Origin: a virus
IMG/VR virus record: IMGVR_UViG_3300044859_001373
Coordinates: 1-22,303 of that record
Length of the DNA: 22,303 nt
Direction: 5' to 3' (one strand)
This document shows, piece by piece, positions 3,396 to 22,303 of the stretch. The notes beneath the pieces were generated by a model, which saw only the letters and a list, made by a program, of their open reading frames with translations, did no database searches and was not told the origin of the DNA. Positions within the stretch are counted from its first letter, which is position 1. The number at the start of each line of letters is the position of its first letter. Position numbers and translations under genes: made by a program.

Positions 3396-3992
3396 TTAAT
3401 CCTCAATGGTTATTTGTCTACAGTCTGGATAATCAACATACACGGGTTGCGGCCTATTAACCTTGATTACGTTGAGCAGGTCCAAACCAATTTCTGCTTC
3501 TTCTATGGTGGGCTTGTAATGATAACCCACCTTGAACACCTGCTGTGATTCCCATGGCTTGATAGCTAAGTCTCTGCCGTCGTAGCGTTGAGCCAGCATG
3601 ATATTGTAGGCTTCGACATCATCCAGCAAGATAGCACCACCACGACCAATGTGAAGTGGTTTGCCATGCCCAAAGCTCAGGCAGGTCAATGTGTCCGGAC
3701 GATACATATCTTGTTCGAGTCTACGTGCTGAATCCCAAATGCGTGTGCCTACAAAAGGGTATTCGCCGACCCAGCGTTGCCAGGCATGATCAAGGTACTC
3801 GTATTTGATACCTAACTTGTGCATGGTCATTGGAATACTCAAATAGGTATAAGGAGTAAACTTGCACTCCTTGACTTGATCGTATCGCAAACACAGTTCA
3901 ATAGCATGCGTACAACAATCAGTCATGATTGCATATGGCGCACCGGTAAACTCTGCTAGAGCTTGTTCAAATTTTAATATTTTGTCAAACAT
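3396..3992 (-). CDS. Half-size DegT/DnrJ/EryC1-family PLP protein
   Basis: 198 residues from the ATG at 3992, chosen because family homology begins there (FEQALAEFTGAPYAI). An upstream ATG at 4100 would overlap the previous gene by more than 100 bases. DegT enzymes are PLP-dependent sugar aminotransferases, usually 360-400 residues. The family landmarks are all present: the TDCCTHAIELCL helix start, TPYTYLSIP, an acidic residue in IWDSARRLEQD (Asp87) for the PLP ring nitrogen, the PLP lysine in SFGHGKPLHIGRGG (Lys111), and KVGYHYKPTIEEAEIGL, matching the usual GYNYRM..(A)AIGL. The C-terminal small domain is absent with no sign of a frameshift, so this is a compact form. Its start overlaps the radical-SAM gene by 8 bases. 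Confidence 0.75.
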   Translation of the reverse strand: MFDKILKFEQALAEFTGAPYAIMTDCCTHAIELCLRYDQVKECKFTPYTYLSIPMTMHKLGIKYEYLDHAWQRWVGEYPFVGTRIWDSARRLEQDMYRPDTLTCLSFGHGKPLHIGRGGAILLDDVEAYNIMLAQRYDGRDLAIKPWESQQVFKVGYHYKPTIEEAEIGLDLLNVIKVNRPQPVYVDYPDCRQITIED

Positions 3993-5865
3993 TGTCAATT
4001 TTGTTAATTCTGTTTTTTGATACTGATGCTCGTCGACCAAAATATAATTGTTCAAAGAAGTCCTGTTTGTTTTTATGCTTAAATGGATACGAAATTTCAA
4101 GTGTGTTTGGAACGTTTAATTCGTCAGAGTTGTTGAACACATAATCGTAAATGTTGTATTGATAGTCAACAGTATACGGGTAACTACCTTCATAATGATG
4201 TAGATAATCAGATTGCAACAACATTACTTCTTTATAAATTTCAGGATCCAACTCGCAAAATTCGTTGTTAATAATTTGATAAATTTCTTCAAGCGTCAAA
4301 TCAACATTATCAAACAATATGTGGATACTGGTCCAAAGCGCACTATGCCCATCCCTGTTTGGAATAATACTTTCGCCACTTTCTAAAAAAGAAACAATAA
4401 AATTCTTCATTCTATAGTATTCTTGAGTCAGTAAACTAGTACTAGGACCGTTAACAATTTTATTTTCAATTTGAGAATAGAAATCGTAGTAACTGATATT
4501 TTTATGTTTTCTTAGGAACCTACTTAGAATATGCGTGATGCCACTATAGTGATAAGTCATTATAATATAACTAAACAAATAACTCTTAACAAAATCCTCA
4601 AGGGGCATGTACTTTGTGGCTTTGACTACTACTTCTTTTTCCATAATATCATCACCCTCATTAACTAATGCACCAGTTACAAACTTTGGAACAGCAATAC
4701 TTTCAATCTGGTGCAGAGTCCGTTGCTCATAGCTGTTGAGTTCTGAGTTTTCTAATAATTGTGCAAGCCAAACATCCAGGCTGTTGTGTTGCCCGGCCTC
4801 GAGTATCAGCCCATGATTTTGTTTCCAAGTTTCATAGGTCTCATAGGGTAGTCCGAGGATCATTTCAGTGTATGCTGGAATACCATTTTTAAAACATTCT
4901 TCTAGCATTTCTTTAAGATCGCTGATTTCCATATTCTTTCTTTTGATAGCATCGAGAACTTGGTCGTTCATGCTTTGCACACTGACAGTAAATCCTCTAT
5001 TTTTATCATTACTAAAAAATATTTTTGCAATTTCTATAATTTTTTGTTTTGCATTTTTAGCCCATTGGGCAATAACAACATGCGGAAATCCCTTTGTGTT
5101 TTGTAATTGATGGATGTGTTGTGCAAACTTTTTATCTCTTTCATAGAGCATGCCAAAATTTGCATCAGCAATAAACAAATATGCAACACGATTGTTAGCC
5201 ATCCAAGTAAGCTCGTCTAGTACCCGATCTTCTGCAAATTTAAGAACCTTGCTGTATGTTAAGCTACCCCAATCACAAAAAGTACATGAATACGGGCATC
5301 CACGGTTGGTTTCTAATACTCCTTGCCAGTAATACTCAGGATTATCCTTGACTATTTTATCAAACACACCCGATGTGTATGGGCTTGGGTACTCTAAGTT
5401 GGCCATTCTAGCAAACGTACTAACTTTTTTAATTGGTTTATTATGATATAATGATAATAGTATATCTAAAAATGCCGGCTCACCTTCACCATTGACAATT
5501 GTATCAACATATGGATGTTTCTTAAAGAAAGATTTTTCATAGGGTAATTTAGTAACTTGTGGTCCACCAAATACAATAAGACACTTGGGCCATTTTTCTT
5601 TAATAGCCTCGGCTAGTTTTTTACAATATTCGTAATTCCAGACATAACAACTAAATGCTGCCACGGATGGATTATCAAAGTTTTTAATTGTTTCGTCAAT
5701 TGACATTCTTTTAAAGACCAACTCTTTAAGTGCAAAGTTATCTTTAATCACCGGGTTTTGTACAGCAAAACTCCAAAGGCATCCTACAGAATACGGCAAC
5801 CAATACCCTTCGGTTCCGCCAAACACATTTCCATGTGCGGGCTGTAGTAAGTAAACATTATGCAT
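3985..5865 (-). CDS. B12-binding-type radical SAM protein
   Basis: 626 residues. Residues about 1-145 look like a cobalamin-binding Rossmann domain (LIVFGGPQVT at 97-106; DTIVNGEGEPAFLDIL at 121-136, the usual end of this domain). Next comes the radical SAM core with the 4Fe-4S triad in NRGCPYSCTFCDWG (Cys190, Cys194, Cys197), then IADANFGM and EMILGLPYETYETWK, typical of this class. The remaining ~200 residues form a helical C-terminal extension. Such enzymes use a 5'-deoxyadenosyl radical for methylations and rearrangements. The canonical B12-ligand motif DxHxxG is not visible, so cobalamin binding is uncertain. It sits between the SGNH and DegT-like genes with 8-base overlaps on both sides, suggesting action on the same substrate. 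Confidence 0.85.
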   Translation of the reverse strand: MHNVYLLQPAHGNVFGGTEGYWLPYSVGCLWSFAVQNPVIKDNFALKELVFKRMSIDETIKNFDNPSVAAFSCYVWNYEYCKKLAEAIKEKWPKCLIVFGGPQVTKLPYEKSFFKKHPYVDTIVNGEGEPAFLDILLSLYHNKPIKKVSTFARMANLEYPSPYTSGVFDKIVKDNPEYYWQGVLETNRGCPYSCTFCDWGSLTYSKVLKFAEDRVLDELTWMANNRVAYLFIADANFGMLYERDKKFAQHIHQLQNTKGFPHVVIAQWAKNAKQKIIEIAKIFFSNDKNRGFTVSVQSMNDQVLDAIKRKNMEISDLKEMLEECFKNGIPAYTEMILGLPYETYETWKQNHGLILEAGQHNSLDVWLAQLLENSELNSYEQRTLHQIESIAVPKFVTGALVNEGDDIMEKEVVVKATKYMPLEDFVKSYLFSYIIMTYHYSGITHILSRFLRKHKNISYYDFYSQIENKIVNGPSTSLLTQEYYRMKNFIVSFLESGESIIPNRDGHSALWTSIHILFDNVDLTLEEIYQIINNEFCELDPEIYKEVMLLQSDYLHHYEGSYPYTVDYQYNIYDYVFNNSDELNVPNTLEISYPFKHKNKQDFFEQLYFGRRASVSKNRINKIDNV

Positions 5866-6556
5866 TTTTTGATTTTTTTATATAATTGTAAATATGCTCT
5901 GACCACATTTGGTGACCATAATCATTAAGGTGACAATCATTTTTACTTATCGCAACATTGTTGTCAACAATGAAATCCAACATATATCCAGCACCAACAA
6001 GTTTTAAATCTTGTGTGCTTTCTTTGCTAAAATAAAACGGAACATAAGTCCCAGGACACCGCAATTTTACACTATCGGTGTAACTTAGAAAATTGCAGGT
6101 TTGTTCGTATAACGAATAATAATTGTCAAACCAATTATCATAAAAATTGATCCCAGTTGACGTAGGAGTCAATGTTGACCACTTTTTTTGTGTGTTAAGA
6201 AAATTGTTATTACTGCGAAATAACTGTTTTGTTTTGGTGGTATACACTAAACTTTTTTTAATAGCTTCTGTGTGTACTGGGTTATCATTGTCAATGATAA
6301 AGGATTTTCGTGATGGGTGACTCCATCCAATTATTACCAAATCGTTGTCTGTAATTCTGTTAAGATTTTCTAAAAACGTATGATAAATGAAAAAATTATC
6401 TGCTCCTGCTTGAGCATAATTTTCGTACTCTATATTTAGCTTTTTACTAAGAAGATTGGGCCATCCATGTTCGGGTGACCCAATATTGTAAGGCAAGGAC
6501 ATACTTTGTCCAAATACCCAAAGTTTACTGTTTTCTATTATACCAAAGCCAGGCAT
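5858..6556 (-). CDS. SGNH/GDSL hydrolase-like protein
   Basis: 232 residues. SGNH blocks can be followed: block I as LWVFGQSMS (12-20; Ser18, with GQS in place of the usual GDS), block II as NYAQAGADNFFIYHTF (Gly/Asn oxyanion region), a VIIGWSHPSRK strand, and block V as DCHLNDYGHQMWSEHI near residues 207-222 (Asp and His of the triad). The family hydrolyses esters, often acyl or acetyl groups on sugars. The Asp-to-Gln change beside the serine may affect activity. The start overlaps the end of galE by 32 bases; later in-frame ATGs would remove block I. The role is probably glycan acyl-ester removal or transfer in the sugar operon, inferred from context. Confidence 0.72.
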   Translation of the reverse strand: MPGFGIIENSKLWVFGQSMSLPYNIGSPEHGWPNLLSKKLNIEYENYAQAGADNFFIYHTFLENLNRITDNDLVIIGWSHPSRKSFIIDNDNPVHTEAIKKSLVYTTKTKQLFRSNNNFLNTQKKWSTLTPTSTGINFYDNWFDNYYSLYEQTCNFLSYTDSVKLRCPGTYVPFYFSKESTQDLKLVGAGYMLDFIVDNNVAISKNDCHLNDYGHQMWSEHIYNYIKKSKNA

Positions 6557-7502
6557 GTTTAATTATATCATCTAGTGAAAACTGCTGTTTCCAATTGGTT
6601 AAAGAACTAAATTTATCTGCGCTGGCAGTCAGGATCTCCGGATCACCATCTCTTTGTGGACCTATTTTTACCTGTAGTTTTAATCCTGTAATTTTTTCTG
6701 CTGAATTGATAATGTCCTGATTACTTGATCCTGTACTGGTTCCAAGATTATAAGTCCCACTAGGAAGTTCTGCATCAATTGCCAATATGTGTGCATGTGC
6801 AATGTCCTCAACATGAATGTAATCTCTAATGCAGGTTTTGTCAGCAGTGGGATAATTGTTACCATTGAGAGTGAATTCTTGACCATCCCGTAAACTCTCT
6901 AACACACGAGCAATAATGTGTGTTGCATTGGGTGCTTGCCCGTGCTGTATTTTACTATCTGCACCGCAGGCATTGAAATATCGGAATGCAACATATTCTA
7001 ATCCATAAGCTACTTTATATCCTTCTAAAATCCATTCCATAGCCCGTTTTGTTTCTCCATATGGACTAATTGGTTCGCAAGGATCAACTTCGTGACAAGG
7101 AGTCATAATTGGATTACCATAAACACTAGCACTACTACTAAAGATAATTTTGGGACGATATTCTGCTGGAATACTACAAATTCTATCCAGAAATTGTATG
7201 TTCTTTGCAATGTTATTATTCCAGTATTCTTTTGGATTCTTAACACTGGGTCCAACTAGACTAGTTCCTGCACAATGAATGACCGCGGCTGGCCTGGCGG
7301 CCTCGATGACATTGATGATTTCCTCAGATGCAAAATCCCCTCGATGGAATTGATTTGGTACCAACATTAAATGTTTGGGCAACGTATTCTGATCAACTCC
7401 AAGAACTATGTACCCTAACCGCTTTAACGAAATCATTGTTTGTCCACCGATATACCCGGCAGCACCAGTAACTACTACTAATTTATAAGAGTCAACATTC
7501 AT
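6525..7502 (-). CDS. galE: UDP-glucose 4-epimerase (GalE) or closely related NDP-sugar epimerase
   Basis: 325 residues, the usual length for an extended short-chain dehydrogenase. VTGAAGYIGG (11-20) is the NAD-binding glycine motif, FSSSASVYGNP (121-131) carries the catalytic Ser, and SPYGETKRAMEW (146-157) gives the YxxxK pair (Tyr148, Lys152). YFNACGAD, RDYIHVEDIAHAH and GTYNLGTSTGSSNQ are strongly GalE-like. It interconverts UDP-glucose and UDP-galactose, or the N-acetyl forms, supplying donors for the adjacent glycosyltransferases. It begins with an ATGA overlap with the glycosyltransferase stop and runs into the SGNH gene. Confidence 0.92.
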   Translation of the reverse strand: MNVDSYKLVVVTGAAGYIGGQTMISLKRLGYIVLGVDQNTLPKHLMLVPNQFHRGDFASEEIINVIEAARPAAVIHCAGTSLVGPSVKNPKEYWNNNIAKNIQFLDRICSIPAEYRPKIIFSSSASVYGNPIMTPCHEVDPCEPISPYGETKRAMEWILEGYKVAYGLEYVAFRYFNACGADSKIQHGQAPNATHIIARVLESLRDGQEFTLNGNNYPTADKTCIRDYIHVEDIAHAHILAIDAELPSGTYNLGTSTGSSNQDIINSAEKITGLKLQVKIGPQRDGDPEILTASADKFSSLTNWKQQFSLDDIIKHAWLWYNRKQ

Positions 7503-11114: not shown

Positions 11115-11810
11115 TTATTTCCTATCACCAAACAACTGCAACAGGTTCAAGAACAAGTTGATAAAGTCCATGTACAAGGTCAGCGCACCACGAACTTCGG
11201 CCACGTCGCTGGTTTCGGTACTGAGTTCTTCACGAATCTTTTGCGTGTCATAGGCAGTCAATCCAAGGAAGATAATAATTGCTAGTGCGGAGATCACCAT
11301 CTGCATCACAGTTGATCCAATAAAGATATTCACAATACTGGCAATAACAATAGCAATCAGTCCAACAAACATAAACTTGCCCATGCTATCTAGACTTTGT
11401 TTGGTGAAGTAGCCATAGCCACTCATCACCCCAAACAGAATGGCAGCACCCATAAATGCTGACACAATTGATCCCATAGTGAACACAGCAAAGATCATTG
11501 CAAAACTCAGGCCCATCAGGGCCGCAAAGCCATGCAAGCATAACTGTGCCACACTCTTAGTAGGATTGTTACCTAGTACCATAGCAACACCAAAGATTGC
11601 CGCAAGTGGTGAAAAGATCACAATCCATTTCAACCAACCTGTAAAAAAGAATGCCAGCAACTCTGGACTAGATCCTACAAAGTAACTCACAAACATTGAT
11701 ACTATTACAGCAAGACTCATGTGTCCATACACACGACCCATTGCTGAATTGATTTCTTCTGCTGAGCGGTAATTTACAATACCATTATCAGTATAATTTG
11801 CACCAAACAT
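11115..11810 (-). CDS. Bax inhibitor-1 / YccA-family membrane protein
   Basis: 231 residues with seven hydrophobic spans at about 28-46, 62-80, 88-110, 113-131, 146-166, 168-186 and 208-228. The C-terminal signature is clear: FLGLTAYDTQKI (181-192) with the conserved Asp188, and LYMDFINLFLNLLQLFG (212-228), matching the LYLDFINLFLxLL motif of BI-1/TMBIM proteins. Family members include pH-sensitive calcium-leak channels such as bacterial YetJ; YccA inhibits the FtsH membrane protease in E. coli, and lambda CIII targets the same protease. The ATG follows an AAGGAG site. A phage copy could protect phage proteins from FtsH or alter ion leak to time lysis; both are inferences. All conserved residues seem intact. 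Confidence 0.92.
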   Translation of the reverse strand: MFGANYTDNGIVNYRSAEEINSAMGRVYGHMSLAVIVSMFVSYFVGSSPELLAFFFTGWLKWIVIFSPLAAIFGVAMVLGNNPTKSVAQLCLHGFAALMGLSFAMIFAVFTMGSIVSAFMGAAILFGVMSGYGYFTKQSLDSMGKFMFVGLIAIVIASIVNIFIGSTVMQMVISALAIIIFLGLTAYDTQKIREELSTETSDVAEVRGALTLYMDFINLFLNLLQLFGDRK

Positions 11811-12565: not shown

Positions 12566-12768
12566 CGTTCATCATCCCAGGGAATCTCTTGTTCGTATTC
12601 GTATTGTTGTTTGCGTAGTGCTGACAGTTGATCTAAAACTGTTAGTTTTTGTTTTTTAAGATTTTGCATTAACTCGTCGGTGTACACACCCGACTTTTCT
12701 AATGTGTCAATCTTGTCATGGAGCACACGGTGTGACTCCTCAAGCATGCGAATTTTTCCCTTGTGCAT
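12562..12768 (-). CDS. Small coiled-coil protein (DUF465/YdcH-like pattern)
   Basis: 68 residues, almost all helical. RMLEESHRVLHDKIDTLEKS followed by DELMQNLKKQKLTVLDQLSAL gives two heptad-rich helices joined by a short turn, the pattern of DUF465/YdcH or SlyX-like mini-proteins (the LKKQKL motif is typical). The C-terminus is acidic (EIPWDDER). It overlaps the end of the DpdA-like gene by 29 bases, so translation is probably coupled. It may act as an oligomerising partner; the function is unknown. Confidence 0.65.
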   Translation of the reverse strand: MHKGKIRMLEESHRVLHDKIDTLEKSGVYTDELMQNLKKQKLTVLDQLSALRKQQYEYEQEIPWDDER

Positions 12769-14305
12769 TTAAATTCTCCAATTGATCTAAAAGTGATTCA
12801 TCAAACTCATCTGATGACCGGGTGCTTTCAACTTCAAACAAGTTATTAAATTGTGTATGTGCGTTGGTTGTTTTCTTACCAGTAAAACCTCTAGTGCCTA
12901 TGATCTGATCCCAAAACTTCGAATGTTGGTTAATCAAGTCAAGACTCTTTTGTCTGTCTTTAAGGCTAAAGATTTTATCTATTAAGTCCCTAAATTTTAC
13001 ACGATCAAAGGTTTCTCGGACAAGCATTCCGGGCAACAAGCCTGCATCATATTGCCTATTTGCTTCCTGTACTGCTCGAATGTGATGCCAAACATTGTGC
13101 CCCATCATCAAAGCATAGCTAAAACTATCCCATGATGTGCGACCTTCTTTGCCAATCTTATTAAGATCACCAGGTTTATAAATGCAAACATCCTTAATGC
13201 CCATTCTTGAACTAATTGGACTGTCTTCAAACAAGCTGTGTACTTTGTCTTGTATTACTGCATCTCTAAAACTTCTTGTGTCGATAGAATATTTTTTATC
13301 ATCTGCAGTTGGTTCCATTTGATAAGACCACTTGCCTCTATCTTCCACACGTAGATTGGTGTAGATTTGTCCATTGGCTGTGGCAAGGAAAGGGCTGGCA
13401 CAGTCAAAGCTGATGGTGAACTTGGGATTGTGATAACGTCTAACTGCACGTTGAACATCAGTAAGCAAACACGCCCACTCAAGTTTGCTTGTACCTAAAA
13501 AGTGCATCCAATCATGTAGGCCTTCTTCTAATAGACCATCGTGAATTAGTGTAATTAATCTTTTTAGAACCAAGTGAACATCACACATGTTCTGACCACC
13601 CATGCCCCAGCCGTTAAATGGTCGTTCGTATTTGGAAGGGTCGCAGTAATCCTTCATCAAACTGTACCAGTGGTCGGCCTCTCCATGATTACCACCTTGC
13701 AGTACATTTAGAATCTTGACATTGCCGTGTCTATTTTTAATCCAATATTCGTTGTTGTACTTTGTGGCACTCACTGCATCGTCGTAGCTAAAAATACCAC
13801 ATGCGGCAGCGGCCTTTGGATCACGGAATGTCCAAGTTGGAATATCCATGGTCATTCCGTATGTGCCCAGACCGCATTGCCATTCTAATACTGCTCTGCG
13901 TTTTTTCTCTGCGGCTTTGTCTGTGGGATCAGCCCAGCGACCGGGCCATACACCCTTGGCTATCTGGAATCCGCCGGAGTCCAAAATCATGAGACTGTTT
14001 GGATCCCTGTTTCGAACCATGTCTTCTTTTGGATCTACCTTGGCCAGATCTAGGTTGGCATGACCCGCTGAGTAAAGACTGTACTTGTATGGAAATAACC
14101 CTTTTTGTGGACTGAGCCAATTAAGCATTTCCATGTCAGGGATTGCTGTGGGCATACGTGCTGGTTCAATATATTGTTCAGTACGTTGCCTGCCCACATA
14201 CGAAGCATAGAAACTACTAATAGCAGGCAAAAACACAGCATAGTCACTTTGCTGTGCTGTTAAATTGTCCTGCGTGACTGAGCTATTATTTTCTTTAAGA
14301 TCCAT
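12740..14305 (-). CDS. dpdA: TGT-like / DpdA-type 7-deazaguanine DNA transglycosylase
   Basis: 521 residues. The core matches tRNA-guanine transglycosylase: LDSGGFQ (108-114) carries the general acid/base Asp109; VLQGG (201-205) and GMGGQ (234-238) match the substrate-binding QGG and GG motifs; MHFLGTSK (267-274); and FDCASPF (300-306) holds the nucleophile Asp301 in the place of TGT FDCxxPTR. The canonical tRNA-TGT zinc motif CxCxxC...H is not visible, and the C-terminal ~200 residues are unlike TGT. Both points favour DpdA-type enzymes, which swap guanine in DNA for preQ0 or a derivative. FolE and QueD nearby support this. It is co-transcribed with the sliding clamp. A phage enzyme on tRNA is the main alternative. 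Confidence 0.82.
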   Translation of the reverse strand: MDLKENNSSVTQDNLTAQQSDYAVFLPAISSFYASYVGRQRTEQYIEPARMPTAIPDMEMLNWLSPQKGLFPYKYSLYSAGHANLDLAKVDPKEDMVRNRDPNSLMILDSGGFQIAKGVWPGRWADPTDKAAEKKRRAVLEWQCGLGTYGMTMDIPTWTFRDPKAAAACGIFSYDDAVSATKYNNEYWIKNRHGNVKILNVLQGGNHGEADHWYSLMKDYCDPSKYERPFNGWGMGGQNMCDVHLVLKRLITLIHDGLLEEGLHDWMHFLGTSKLEWACLLTDVQRAVRRYHNPKFTISFDCASPFLATANGQIYTNLRVEDRGKWSYQMEPTADDKKYSIDTRSFRDAVIQDKVHSLFEDSPISSRMGIKDVCIYKPGDLNKIGKEGRTSWDSFSYALMMGHNVWHHIRAVQEANRQYDAGLLPGMLVRETFDRVKFRDLIDKIFSLKDRQKSLDLINQHSKFWDQIIGTRGFTGKKTTNAHTQFNNLFEVESTRSSDEFDESLLDQLENLNAQGKNSHA

Positions 14306-18705: not shown

Positions 18706-19299
18706 TTAAATATCACGTGTAGTTATCACTTTGTCGGCAAGACCGTAATTAACTGATTCCTCTGCTGACATAAACTTGTCACGATCCATATCTTCAGTTA
18801 GCTGTTCAAAAGTTTTACCCGTTGAGTTGTGCTTGACATAAATTTCAGTTAAACGTTTCTTCAAATAGGTAATTTCTTTGTAGCTAATTTCGATATCGCT
18901 TTGCATGCCACGAGCGCCACCACTAGGTTGGTGTATCATGTGTCGTGCATTAGGCAGGATCATGCGCTTGCCTTTGGCACCCGATTGTGCCAACAAACTT
19001 CCCATGCTACATGCTTGTCCCATTACAATGGTATTAACATCGGGTTTAATAAACTGCATGGTATCATAGATAGCCATACCAGCAGTGACACTACCTCCAG
19101 GGCTGTTGATGTACATACTGATATCTTTGTCTGGGTTTTCGCTCTCGAGAAATAGTAGTTGAGCAACAATTAGATTTGCCATTTGATCATGTACTTCACC
19201 TTCAAGTAAAATCACACGGTCACGTAACAAGCGGCTATAGATATCATAGCTACGCTCACCTTTGCTGGTTTGTTCCAGCACCATTGGTACTAATGCCAT
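18706..19299 (-). CDS. clpP: ClpP-type serine protease
   Basis: 197 residues, standard ClpP length. [20 protein letters not shown] (61-80) is the ClpP hallmark, [10 protein letters not shown] (94-103) holds the nucleophile Ser98, [14 protein letters not shown] (118-131) gives His123, and [11 protein letters not shown] (171-181) gives Asp172, so the triad is complete. Cellular ClpP forms a double-ring barrel served by ClpA/X ATPases. The N-terminal [20 protein letters not shown] matches mature ClpP, which typically has PxVxExTxxGERxYDI. Encoded between a DNA-binding regulator and the polymerase, a phage copy could redirect host Clp proteolysis or process phage proteins. No partner ATPase is in this window. 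Confidence 0.96.
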
Positions 19300-19642: not shown

Positions 19643-20713
19643 TTATAATCCGCCAAATAAAATTACTCGGTCAAGATTTTTTATTTGATCTAAGTTTTCT
19701 TGTGCTTGTGGATATTGACTGTGTTTGGGATTAAATACATCAATCAACTTAAATTCATCGTTGGAAAATGTACCCCAATTTCCAATTCTTCCATATTCGA
19801 CTAAATCTACGCCCAGTTCCTGTCCCATGTTGTAAAATTCTAGCATTTCTTCAAAATTATCTTTTTGAACAATCATTCGAATTTTAAACAGCATGCCATT
19901 TTGTTTTTTCTTTTCAGAGATCCACAATAATGCATGTTGTAGGTCGTCCCAGCGTCCACCACGACGCAATTTTTCATATGTAGCGGGCCTTGCGGCATCA
20001 GTGGTAATGGTAATTGATTTTACTTTTTCTTGCATGCTCTCGAGTCGATGCCATCGTTCTGGTACCAGTAAACCATTTGATTGTATAGCCAATTGTACGT
20101 TTGGAAAATCCTCAGTTGATATTGTGTTAACAAACGACAACAACATTGGACTAGCAAACAGTTCCCCACTGGTACTCACGTGTAGTACAATTGGTCGATC
20201 AGTGGGTGTACAAAACAGATTTGATTTTAGCGTTTGCCCTAGGTGTTCTAGATGTTCGGTCTGTGCATCATTGTTTTTTATAATTTCCGTTCGACAACTT
20301 GGGCAACTGAGATTACAGGTGCGATCGCCGGATACCCAAATCTCTTTGGGCATAATGTAACGAGATGCATCAAGAAGCAAGGGCTTAATATCATCGCCTA
20401 CATTTTCTTTAACATTAAGTAGATCACTTTTTAAAACTCCACAGGTGTTTTCATTGCAAAAGTCGTAGGTTCCGTTGATGATGCTTTGACGTATATTGGT
20501 ACTGCCAGCATTGGACAATATTTCGTCTAGTGAATTGATTAATAAATTTCCAACCTTGGAGGGCATCCAATCTTGACAACCACATAATGTTATTCCACCA
20601 TCTGTATCAATGCACATGCCCACAAAAGGACTAAGACAAACAAGATTTTGAAAATTTTTTGCTGGAAATTGTACTAGTGGTTTTTGTATCCAATTTAGTT
20701 TGTATTTTGACAT
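19643..20713 (-). CDS. Radical SAM protein with N-terminal SPASM-like cysteine segment
   Basis: 356 residues from the ATG at 20713; a TTG at 20764 could add 17 residues. The radical SAM triad lies in GDRTCNLSCPSCRTE (Cys133, Cys137, Cys140), followed by LHVSTSGELFASP, LAIQSNGLLV and ITTDAARPATYEKLRRGG, typical barrel strands. Ahead of the core, residues about 24-95 carry CLSPFVGMCIDTDGGITLCG (26-45), then Cys46, a GNLL-SLDEIL stretch and FCNENTCGVL. This is the order of a SPASM domain (auxiliary iron-sulfur cluster), but placed before instead of after the core. SPASM enzymes modify peptides, proteins or sugars. It stands alone between the structural gene and the dsbA promoter. It is not QueE, which is smaller and has no SPASM. 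Confidence 0.82.
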   Translation of the reverse strand: MSKYKLNWIQKPLVQFPAKNFQNLVCLSPFVGMCIDTDGGITLCGCQDWMPSKVGNLLINSLDEILSNAGSTNIRQSIINGTYDFCNENTCGVLKSDLLNVKENVGDDIKPLLLDASRYIMPKEIWVSGDRTCNLSCPSCRTEIIKNNDAQTEHLEHLGQTLKSNLFCTPTDRPIVLHVSTSGELFASPMLLSFVNTISTEDFPNVQLAIQSNGLLVPERWHRLESMQEKVKSITITTDAARPATYEKLRRGGRWDDLQHALLWISEKKKQNGMLFKIRMIVQKDNFEEMLEFYNMGQELGVDLVEYGRIGNWGTFSNDEFKLIDVFNPKHSQYPQAQENLDQIKNLDRVILFGGL

Positions 20714-20719
20714 ATAGTA

Positions 20720-20820
20720 ATTATGCTCACTTTTGGATTCCTGGTAGCGAATCAGGCCGTCCAAGGCAGCAGCCGCCTACACCACGGTAACAAGTACCGG
20801 TCCTAAGGTGTGTTCTTAAA
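20720..20820 (-). other. GC-rich structured leader upstream of the radical-SAM gene
   Basis: This stretch is more GC-rich than its surroundings. On the minus strand ACACC...GGTGT encloses GGTA-CTTGT-TACC as a nested stem, and further on GATTC...GAATC flank an 8-base loop. It could be a regulatory leader RNA for the radical-SAM gene or the end of a processed transcript. I do not recognise a known riboswitch class. Confidence 0.35.
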
Positions 20821-20921: not shown

Positions 20922-22303
20922 TTACTTGCTGGATTTATAACTAGCGTAGCCGCGACCGTAGCCGCTTCGTTGACCTTCCGCTACACCTTTGTTTTTCTGA
21001 AAATTTACTTCAGTACTCTTATCTAGTTGATCAGCAAAGTGAGCCAGTGCCGGACTCTTGCCTGCCATGTATGCGTCTACAGCAGGGCCTTCTGCCACGC
21101 CTTGCGATTCAAAAGTACCTATATCTTTAGAAACTCTACGCTCACTGCCTTGACTTGGAAAATTAGTTTGTGATTTCTTAGATTGTTGCATCTTTTGTGC
21201 AGCCGCATCTTGTGCCTTTGCCTTCAACACATTCAATGTTCTTGTGTCTAATTCTCTACCATCTTCTTTTGCTCGTTGCACTAAGACCTGAAAATATTTG
21301 TTTGCTAATTCTACTTGTTGACCATTCATGCTTGGCATTGTTTGAGCGCCAACACCTAGTGAACTTAATGCCATTGCACTACCTGCAACAACATCTTTCC
21401 AGCCTTCCGCCACACCTTGAGGGTTATCGTTGGGATTGGTAGTCAACATAAACTCTTTGCCCTGATTGAACAGTTTAGCCTGCATTGTTAGTGCGGCTTT
21501 GTTTGCGGCAGCCTTACCGCGGAATGAATAAGGACCGCCTTGTTTGTCTTTGATGATTTTTCCATTGAGACGAATGTACCATGTACCGGACTGCACTTGT
21601 TGTTCACGGCGACGATCGCTTTCGTGATCTTCATCGTTGGCACCACCATCAGCACGATATGCTTGTGAATTCTTACCAAAACCTGTGCGATTGTCATCGT
21701 AGTTTCTGTAACCAGCTTCTGTTACACCTTGCTGGCCATACATATCCATCAGTTGTCGAACATAGAAATTGTAATGACCACGGCGGCCGTTGTATTCTCT
21801 ATCTCCAAGCACAGTCTTTAGAGCTCGTACAGCATCATTTACGTCTGAACCCTGCATTATTTTTAGTGCGTCGGTCACAAGTGAATCAACTCGCTGTGAA
21901 CCTTCCGCTACAGCTTCTTGCATGTTCTTCAGCAATTCTTGTGCTTTTTCAACACTGATCATGTATCTACCAAATCTATTTGGGTCTGCTGCCTTTTGTA
22001 GATATTCTTTGCTAAATCCTTTTGGTGCTTCTGCGGCCGGTTTATTATCAGCAGGTGCTGTCACTGTTGTACTTGGCTTTAGCCCGCCAGTGAAACCGCC
22101 TTGGCCATCAGGAGTAACTCTGGCATTGGCGCCTGCTGAGCCAAGAGCCATTGCTCCAGCAAGACCTAATCCAGCTAACTTGGAACCCAAGCCTTCGTCT
22201 ACATCTTTACCTGCAAAATTATCATTCTGGAAACTACCAACAATGTACCATTTTAAATCATGGTCAACATCATTATGTTCTACACCCATTACGTTAACAT
22301 TGT
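20922..22303 (-). CDS. Polypeptide with repeated prohead-protease-like sites, N-terminus off the window
   Basis: A frame open at the right edge; the first Met visible (22289) is probably internal, because codons upstream are open too. Numbered from that Met, the protein has VDE32|G, VAE129|G, VTE191|A, VAE295|G, VAE400|G and VAE438|G, all fitting the T4 gp21 cleavage rule (hydrophobic-x-Glu | Gly/Ala/Ser). Cutting would give peptides of about 97, 62, 104, 105, 38 and 17 residues, the last a basic GQRSGYGRGYASYKSSK. Two segments right after sites (LAGLGLAGAMALGSAG and VVAGSAMALSSLGVGA) are alike. Low-complexity, Gln/Gly-rich linkers are common. It resembles internal-head or scaffold proteins of marine T4-like phages; the exact virion role is unknown. 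Confidence 0.7.
   Translation of the reverse strand, partial: NVNVMGVEHNDVDHDLKWYIVGSFQNDNFAGKDVDEGLGSKLAGLGLAGAMALGSAGANARVTPDGQGGFTGGLKPSTTVTAPADNKPAAEAPKGFSKEYLQKAADPNRFGRYMISVEKAQELLKNMQEAVAEGSQRVDSLVTDALKIMQGSDVNDAVRALKTVLGDREYNGRRGHYNFYVRQLMDMYGQQGVTEAGYRNYDDNRTGFGKNSQAYRADGGANDEDHESDRRREQQVQSGTWYIRLNGKIIKDKQGGPYSFRGKAAANKAALTMQAKLFNQGKEFMLTTNPNDNPQGVAEGWKDVVAGSAMALSSLGVGAQTMPSMNGQQVELANKYFQVLVQRAKEDGRELDTRTLNVLKAKAQDAAAQKMQQSKKSQTNFPSQGSERRVSKDIGTFESQGVAEGPAVDAYMAGKSPALAHFADQLDKSTEVNFQKNKGVAEGQRSGYGRGYASYKSSK
20973..21917 (-). repeat. Dispersed 18-base repeats encoding QGVAEG-type motifs
   Basis: Five copies lie in one frame of the structural-type gene at 20973-20990, 21087-21104, 21402-21419, 21714-21731 and 21900-21917. 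Their consensus on the minus strand is close to CAAGGTGTGGCGGAAGG. Three encode (K/Q)GVAEG, one QGVTEA and one EAVAEG. Conservation at the DNA level beyond the Glu-Gly bond suggests copying of a module boundary. Confidence 0.75.

Follow-up and report, generated by a model that had tools for sequence, protein, structure and literature searches.

A jumbo-phage polyprotein of shuffled modules joined at VxE|G/A sites: probable prohead cargo with possible hidden export signals

The last open reading frame in a fragment of a giant freshwater phage raises the question of what a single polypeptide punctuated by six similar glutamate-containing motifs is for. This frame lies on the minus strand at 20922-22301 of the window, by which we mean the whole 22.3-kb stretch of DNA analysed; the feature extends to 22303, and its 459 aa are open at the window end. 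The window holds the C-terminal 456-459 residues of the protein, and the first ~103 codons lie beyond it. Exactly six [LIVF]xE triplets occur in the window protein, and every one is a VxE followed by G or A; six such sites had been claimed in the first-pass annotation. V[AT]E[GA] was found five times, compared to 0.05 on average, and never more than 2, in 20,000 shuffles of the same protein. All six sites are on the minus strand: VDE|G (site 1, 22191-22202), VAE|G (site 2, 21900-21911), VTE|A (site 3, 21714-21725) and three further VAE|G (sites 4 to 6, at 21402-21413, 21087-21098 and 20973-20984, respectively). The motif-coding DNA had been described as repeated, and is indeed a 17-nt repeat in six copies with 76-100% identity. 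A scan for the exact DNA pattern CAGGGYGTRGCRGAAGG gave mostly single matches, as chance would. The VDEG had been placed near the visible N-terminus; in the full protein it lies at about residue 138 of 560. The proposed fit to the T4 prohead protease rule failed: that rule has Leu or Ile at P3 (PMC9026906), whereas P3 is Val at all six sites. Since [LI]xE[AG] is absent from the window protein, the sites fit a hydrophobic-x-Glu rule and not the exact T4 one. Pfam and PHROG profiles gave no match for the window protein, and a search of cultured phages with the whole of it gave none at E 0.1.

The remaining genes of the window considered here are also on the minus strand. A SPASM-type radical-SAM protein (19643-20764) is encoded immediately downstream of the polyprotein, and a second radical-SAM protein, with a B12-binding domain, lies at 3985-5865. 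A Bax-inhibitor-1 family membrane protein was recognized at 11115-11810 (PF01027, E=6e-54). GTP cyclohydrolase FolE (2073-2756) and a GalE-type epimerase (6525-7502) have glycosyltransferase-like and aminotransferase-like genes as neighbours, forming a small-molecule/sugar block. A 521-aa protein (12740-14305; ..TAKQNDYAVFLPAISGFYA..) had no Pfam, PHROG or NCBIfam match and is conserved in other module-bearing contigs.

The complete gene was found in a 342-kb contig, G001 (IMG/VR 3300043570_001980), at G001:C1:87482-89164 (locus L004), which includes the N-terminus outside the window. It encodes 560 aa, differs from the window protein by one residue across the common part and starts with MNLNNLFE|A. 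This start matches a regular expression for capsid-targeting sequences (CTS) that was derived from T4 IPII/IPIII, Alt and gp24; the T4 peptides used for comparison were MKTYQEFIAE|A, MELITELFDE|D and MAKINELLRE|S. The T4-like capsid-targeting N-terminus, being beyond the window, was missed in the first-pass annotation. The gene belongs to a cluster, g124-g134 (78-89 kb), of mostly multidomain proteins, several of which have similar starts (MRATEFIVE|N, MRYREILE|A, MRNFINLLE|A and MRFNELQE|T, besides MNLNNLFE|A). GNAT, NTase, GP88, M48 and GH19 matches, weak or clear, were obtained among the cluster neighbours and relatives. Over all loci, the expression was matched by 17/40 proteins with at least two internal motifs, compared to 48/576 without (p=4e-8). 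Across the whole G001 genome, no excess of CTS-like starts was seen (11 versus 5.6 shuffled). In phage PA5oct, such starts were weakly linked to detection in virions by mass spectrometry (15/93 versus 22/294, p=0.024; 5/93 versus 8/294 with a stricter expression). Elsewhere in G001 (265935-266695, at the L049/L050 boundary), two adjacent small proteins start with MRAREFIAE|R and MRAREFITE|Q; encoded a few kb from the terminase gene, they are candidate head cargo. Beside the terminase itself, g338 (L050:4618-7077; G001 270618-273080) encodes an 820-aa protein in which a single QGVAEG site and a glycine-zipper segment occur.

The first-pass annotation had named the lack of a gp21-type protease as a refutation of its reading; the phage lineage encodes one. 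G001 has a T4-type head block comprising portal, acidic core-type protein, S77 prohead protease, scaffold-position protein and gp23 major capsid protein (profile match 1.8e-99), with the terminase and sheath genes located away from it. The gp21-type S77 protease, between portal and Gp23, matched PF03420 (E=3.9e-24) and phrog_207 (1.4e-57), and the T4 stretches GELNHP and GVSSRG appear in it, by eye, as GEVDHP and GVSSRG. Among the contigs that carry modules, an S77 protease was detected in all seven measuring 320 kb or more (G001 is one of them) and in a 235-kb one; the other three gave none, but at 127-262 kb they may be partial. The G001 capsid protein is 64-67% identical to those of PA5oct, Serratia phage BF and Sinorhizobium phage Phosso. 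Its candidate cut, YLKE|NASAG (FLVE|NASAG in PA5oct), also has Glu at P1 and was placed by eye at the position where T4 gp23 is known to be cut. Leu stands at P3 in this likely capsid site (LKE) and in the CTS-like end LFE, unlike in the VxE joints.

We then mapped the modules along the chain, all on the minus strand. The C-terminal part of module A (..VEHNDVDHDLKWYIVGSFQND.., 22194-22301), ending at VDE|, is found in ~20 further loci, in many of which it stands in other protein contexts; in the full protein it corresponds to a domain modelled by AlphaFold2 with high pLDDT (residues 46-125). Immediately behind site 1 starts a first signal-peptide-like segment, GLGSKLAGLGLAGAMALGSAGANA^R (22122-22193), and cassettes resembling it come after LAE, IDE, VDE or LDE in five other loci (L244, L251, L254, L256 and L019). 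A Pro/Thr-rich linker with a helical segment follows (GFSKEYLQKAADPNRFGRYMISVEKAQELLKNMQEAVAE, 21903-22121). Module C (SQRVDSLVTDALKIMQG..MYGQQGVTE, 21717-21902) was confirmed in 86 stretches of viral contigs, in differing protein contexts; a search of 84,980 bacterial and archaeal genomes retrieved neither it nor the whole protein, and so offered no hint of the host. Module D (..SGTWYIRLNGKIIKDKQG..KEFMLTTNPND, 21405-21716; pLDDT ~94) occurs in 23 loci in differing orders. A second signal-peptide-like segment, GWKDVVAGSAMALSSLGVGA^Q (21345-21404), starts immediately behind site 4, and its counterpart VAE|GWKDLAIGGAMALGSLGAGA^Q occurs in a different protein, in L009. Module E, a two-helix domain (NGQQVELANKYFQVLVQRAKEDGRELDTRTLNVLKAKAQDAAAQKMQ.., 21090-21344; pLDDT ~93), is also present in L009 and, more distantly, in L034. 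A piece 97% identical to module F (PAVDAYMAGKSPALAHFADQLDKSTEVNFQKNKGVAE, 20976-21089) is flanked by other modules in L014, and the C-terminal tail (GQRSGYGRGYASYKSSK, 20925-20975) is common to L007 and L016.

The AlphaFold2 model of the full protein (52-row alignment) scored 0.30 in pTM; its compact segments span residues ~46-125, 200-290 (at moderate confidence), 331-390 and 424-480. All sites but one fall within linkers with pLDDT<50; the exception, site 2, is at a helix end (pLDDT ~79) and is the least certain of the six. Fold searches with this model in two libraries gave no informative match. The idea that the protein arose by duplication of cleavage-bounded modules was not supported: one module shows no sequence relationship to another, and what recurs within the window protein is limited to the joints and the signal-like segments. 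Judged by sequence, the modules are swapped in from a pool common to related phages, rather than duplicated.

Comparison of module order between related phages, a check proposed at the outset, supported this view. In ~100 related viral contigs from IMG/VR, single modules turn up in rearranged orders and beside different partners, and the joints coincide with the boundaries of the reshuffled modules. [VILM]xE lay no more than 8 aa from 36% of the alignment breakpoints, compared to 14% at random (0 of 500). When k-mers were counted without assuming a motif, VAE, GVAE and QGVAE ranked first at module breakpoints; GVAE was the top 4-mer in breakpoint windows (59 windows versus 14 expected), and no other 4-mer was as common in mosaic ORFs (62, versus 5 in the four-times larger rest). 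V[AT]E[GANS] was observed 92 times versus 6 in shuffles. One upstream domain (..RAFRADTGxxVxYELSR..) had four different modules attached at the same xxE in five phages.

The segments behind sites 1 and 4 confirm the earlier observation of hydrophobic stretches following two sites, the first (VDEG) and the fourth (VAEG). Each combines positive charge with a hydrophobic run and ends in A-x-A or G-x-A, and by simple rules only they look like Sec export signals. It had been overlooked that cleavage would place these Sec-like segments at a free N-terminus. Twin-arginine (Tat) signals in module proteins gave a clearer picture. All 13 start 1-3 residues after [VILF]xE (background 7%), although some are mutually related and thus do not amount to 13 independent events, and they sit up to 650 residues into the chain. 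In one relative, VSE|ADMNRRGFLRG..AMAQ is found at residue 426 of 554; in another, MRAREFVNE|DLTRRGFLRG.., the signal comes straight behind a CTS-like start. Tat profile scores were above the NCBIfam cut-off in L034 and L016, just below it in L007 and near or under the Pfam cut-off in other loci. Internal start codons were considered as the origin of these pieces and rejected for 9/13, which have no ATG, GTG or TTG there. The residues before the signals vary (LGE, VSE, LKE, VDE, VEE, LEE, LDE, VNE and ITE), as do their codons. A TIGR01409 scan of 13 whole records, with matches not selected on the xxE motif, gave six above the cut-off, 6/6 directly after [VL]xE, two of the six being the same protein in the near-identical contigs G003 and G004. 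One new case, from a 524-kb phage, reads VDE|DISRRGFLKG and is followed by a HECGH metallopeptidase motif. If the cut occurs, the TIGR01409 signals in relatives would be N-terminal export signals.

Enzymes encoded downstream of such signals in relatives include M48 peptidase domains and a GH19 domain, which would fit an envelope destination. A 1186-aa protein (L033:3079-6636) joins a dCMP-deaminase-type domain to a GH19 domain, the latter behind LEE|GWRNALAGAAAAATMAFTPAPANS, and also carries a Tat signal internally. Signal-shaped segments after [VILF]xE were counted in 17/29 cases in motif-bearing ORFs versus 13/149 in others, a test partly conditioned by the choice of ORFs for a related motif. 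Generic hydrophobic segments showed no clear excess after sites (31% versus 26%), as most of these segments were domain cores. Searches of cultured phages with the Tat module and the M48 module found none, and nothing relevant on Tat signals in virion proteins was found in the literature searched.

These observations bear on other ways of reading the chain. It might be a polyvalent virion protein that is packaged and injected whole, with QGVAEG as a mere flexible linker. Polyvalent proteins of 2-15 domains are known, N4 virion RNAP, ArdC and TraC1 are delivered whole (PMC5512222), and the sites do lie in predicted disordered linkers, as linkers would. However, Glu is specifically enriched at P1 of the [LIVM]x-pattern (331 versus 156 shuffled), whereas Asp shows no excess (167 versus 168) and Gln a slight one (157 versus 120). 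Moreover, export signals occur directly behind xxE, and, located hundreds of residues into the chain, they could not function uncut. We thus consider an uncleaved chain unlikely.

The joint could also be kept at the level of DNA, with the GGTGTGGCGGAA repeat serving as recombination homology that shuffles cassettes and the peptide being incidental. Indeed, GGTGTGGCGGAA encodes 77/129 distinct GVAE sites, and the joint codons are strongly biased (GCG 75% versus 9% background; GTG 79% versus 25% in the same ORFs), so that part of the joint conservation may reflect common DNA ancestry. Module C shows much the same codon uniformity internally as the joints do, however, and recent spread of cassettes is therefore the simplest reason for the bias. 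The sites preceding Tat signals vary in both codons and residues, as does the likely capsid site YLKE|N. A purely DNA-level joint is very unlikely in our view; a recombination joint and a protease site can, for that matter, coexist. Finally, the chain might be cut by another protease, such as a host glutamyl endopeptidase or the nearby phage ClpP. The latter gene (18706-19299, minus; Pfam E=2.2e-81) also matches head-maturation protease PHROGs and lies ~1.6 kb from the polyprotein gene, an order kept in the 342-kb relative. Against this stands the dedicated S77 protease within the head gene block, and Clp protease is not known to cleave at a short fixed motif; cutting by another enzyme seems very improbable to us.

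Proteins related to the modules have been recovered from virions of cultured phages. In cyanophage S-SCSM1, virion proteins were assigned by mass spectrometry and S-SCSM1_29 is annotated 'virion protein' (PMC9602691); it is a mosaic with several modules in common with the jumbo-phage polyproteins. ORFs 136, 137, 154 and 156 of S-CREM2 were detected in virions (PMC10665884, Table 3), with the authors' caution that such proteins might be co-purified contaminants. The C-terminal module (~90 aa) of ORF137 is 75% identical to a jumbo-phage module, the nucleotidyltransferase domain of G001 g124 has a homologue in ORF156 (35%), and ORF154 and ORF136 start with MKNFSSFLTE|A and MQTFSMFFSE|D. DUF6321 (PF19846), a basic, Cys-containing module ending in ..RRRWNC, is found at the C-terminal ends of L009, L034 and L287 and is common to jumbo-phage mosaics and apparently to cyanophage virion proteins; it is possibly DNA-binding or packaging-related.

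Of the first-pass reading as a polyprotein of cleavable modules, duplication and the exact T4 consensus find no support, while the protease gene, the shuffling at joints and the virion homologues speak for the rest. From the sites, the shuffling, the CTS-like starts, the protease gene and the placement of the signals, all read from the genomes, we infer that the polyprotein is probably capsid-targeted head cargo, which the prohead protease would divide into modules for injection, some of them then being exported to the envelope. The MNLNNLFE|A peptide would carry the chain into the prohead core, and the gp21-type protease would cleave behind hydrophobic-x-Glu, here at the VxE|G/A bonds. Small, independently folded modules would thereby be freed and kept separately inside the capsid, then injected along with the DNA, and phages would trade them as cassettes that end at cut sites. 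Certain cuts would leave the freshly made N-terminus with a Sec- or Tat-type signal, and the modules bearing one (M48 peptidase and GH19 hydrolase domains among those of relatives) could be exported to the host envelope following entry. We hold more tentatively, as a nearly balanced question, that the prohead protease plays a double role, both freeing modules and switching on hidden export signals. Modules drawn from a common cassette pool with a standard cleavable joint might be packed silent, cut in the head and injected, some of them bound for the periplasm via host Tat or Sec.

If this is true, dozens of unannotated jumbo-phage and cyanophage proteins would become a readable code, as cutting at hydrophobic-x-Glu would make each piece a candidate early effector. 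Periplasm-bound pieces would be predictable and injected proteins could be found from sequence alone. It would also add a maturation-triggered export step, none of which we found described for a phage, and a natural cassette system that loads many small proteins per capsid.

Parts of this arrangement are known from other systems. The T4-like cyanophage mosaics S-SCSM1_29, S-CREM2 ORF137 and S-SSM7_236 share modules with the polyproteins, and mass spectrometry identified the first two as virion proteins. These mosaics are annotated only as virion or hypothetical, the literature searched held no polyprotein interpretation of them, and a search on CTS with metagenomes or cyanophages found nothing relevant. 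In SPN3US and phiKZ, likewise jumbo phages, ejection and inner-body proteins are cut after x-x-E by the gp21-like gp245/gp175, and propeptides are cut several times (PMC10052503, PMC9026906). The mapped SPN3US cuts, however, remove N-terminal propeptides (A-x-E motif) and do not yield separate retained modules; the protease itself has one C-terminal propeptide. Polyvalent proteins (PMC5512222) are similarly multidomain, with shuffled NTase, GNAT and metallopeptidase domains delivered with the genome, and the polyprotein likewise has several unrelated domains per chain, shuffled between phages. Release of domains was proposed there to occur via embedded peptidases, whereas here it would occur via a separate prohead protease at a standard joint; signal peptides have 0 occurrences in that paper (Iyer et al. 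2017). The T4 internal head proteins IPI, IPII, IPIII and Alt are alike in their N-terminal M-x3/4-[DEN]-[LFIM]-x1/2-E peptide, the gp21-type S77 protease, the hydrophobic-x-Glu cut and their nature as head cargo meant for injection. In T4 IPIII, processing is blocked when Asp occupies the cut position. T4 cargo is trimmed of a short N-terminal CTS (and, in the case of Alt, of a C-terminal piece as well), whereas the polyprotein has many sites per chain between interchangeable modules, and export signals behind some of them.
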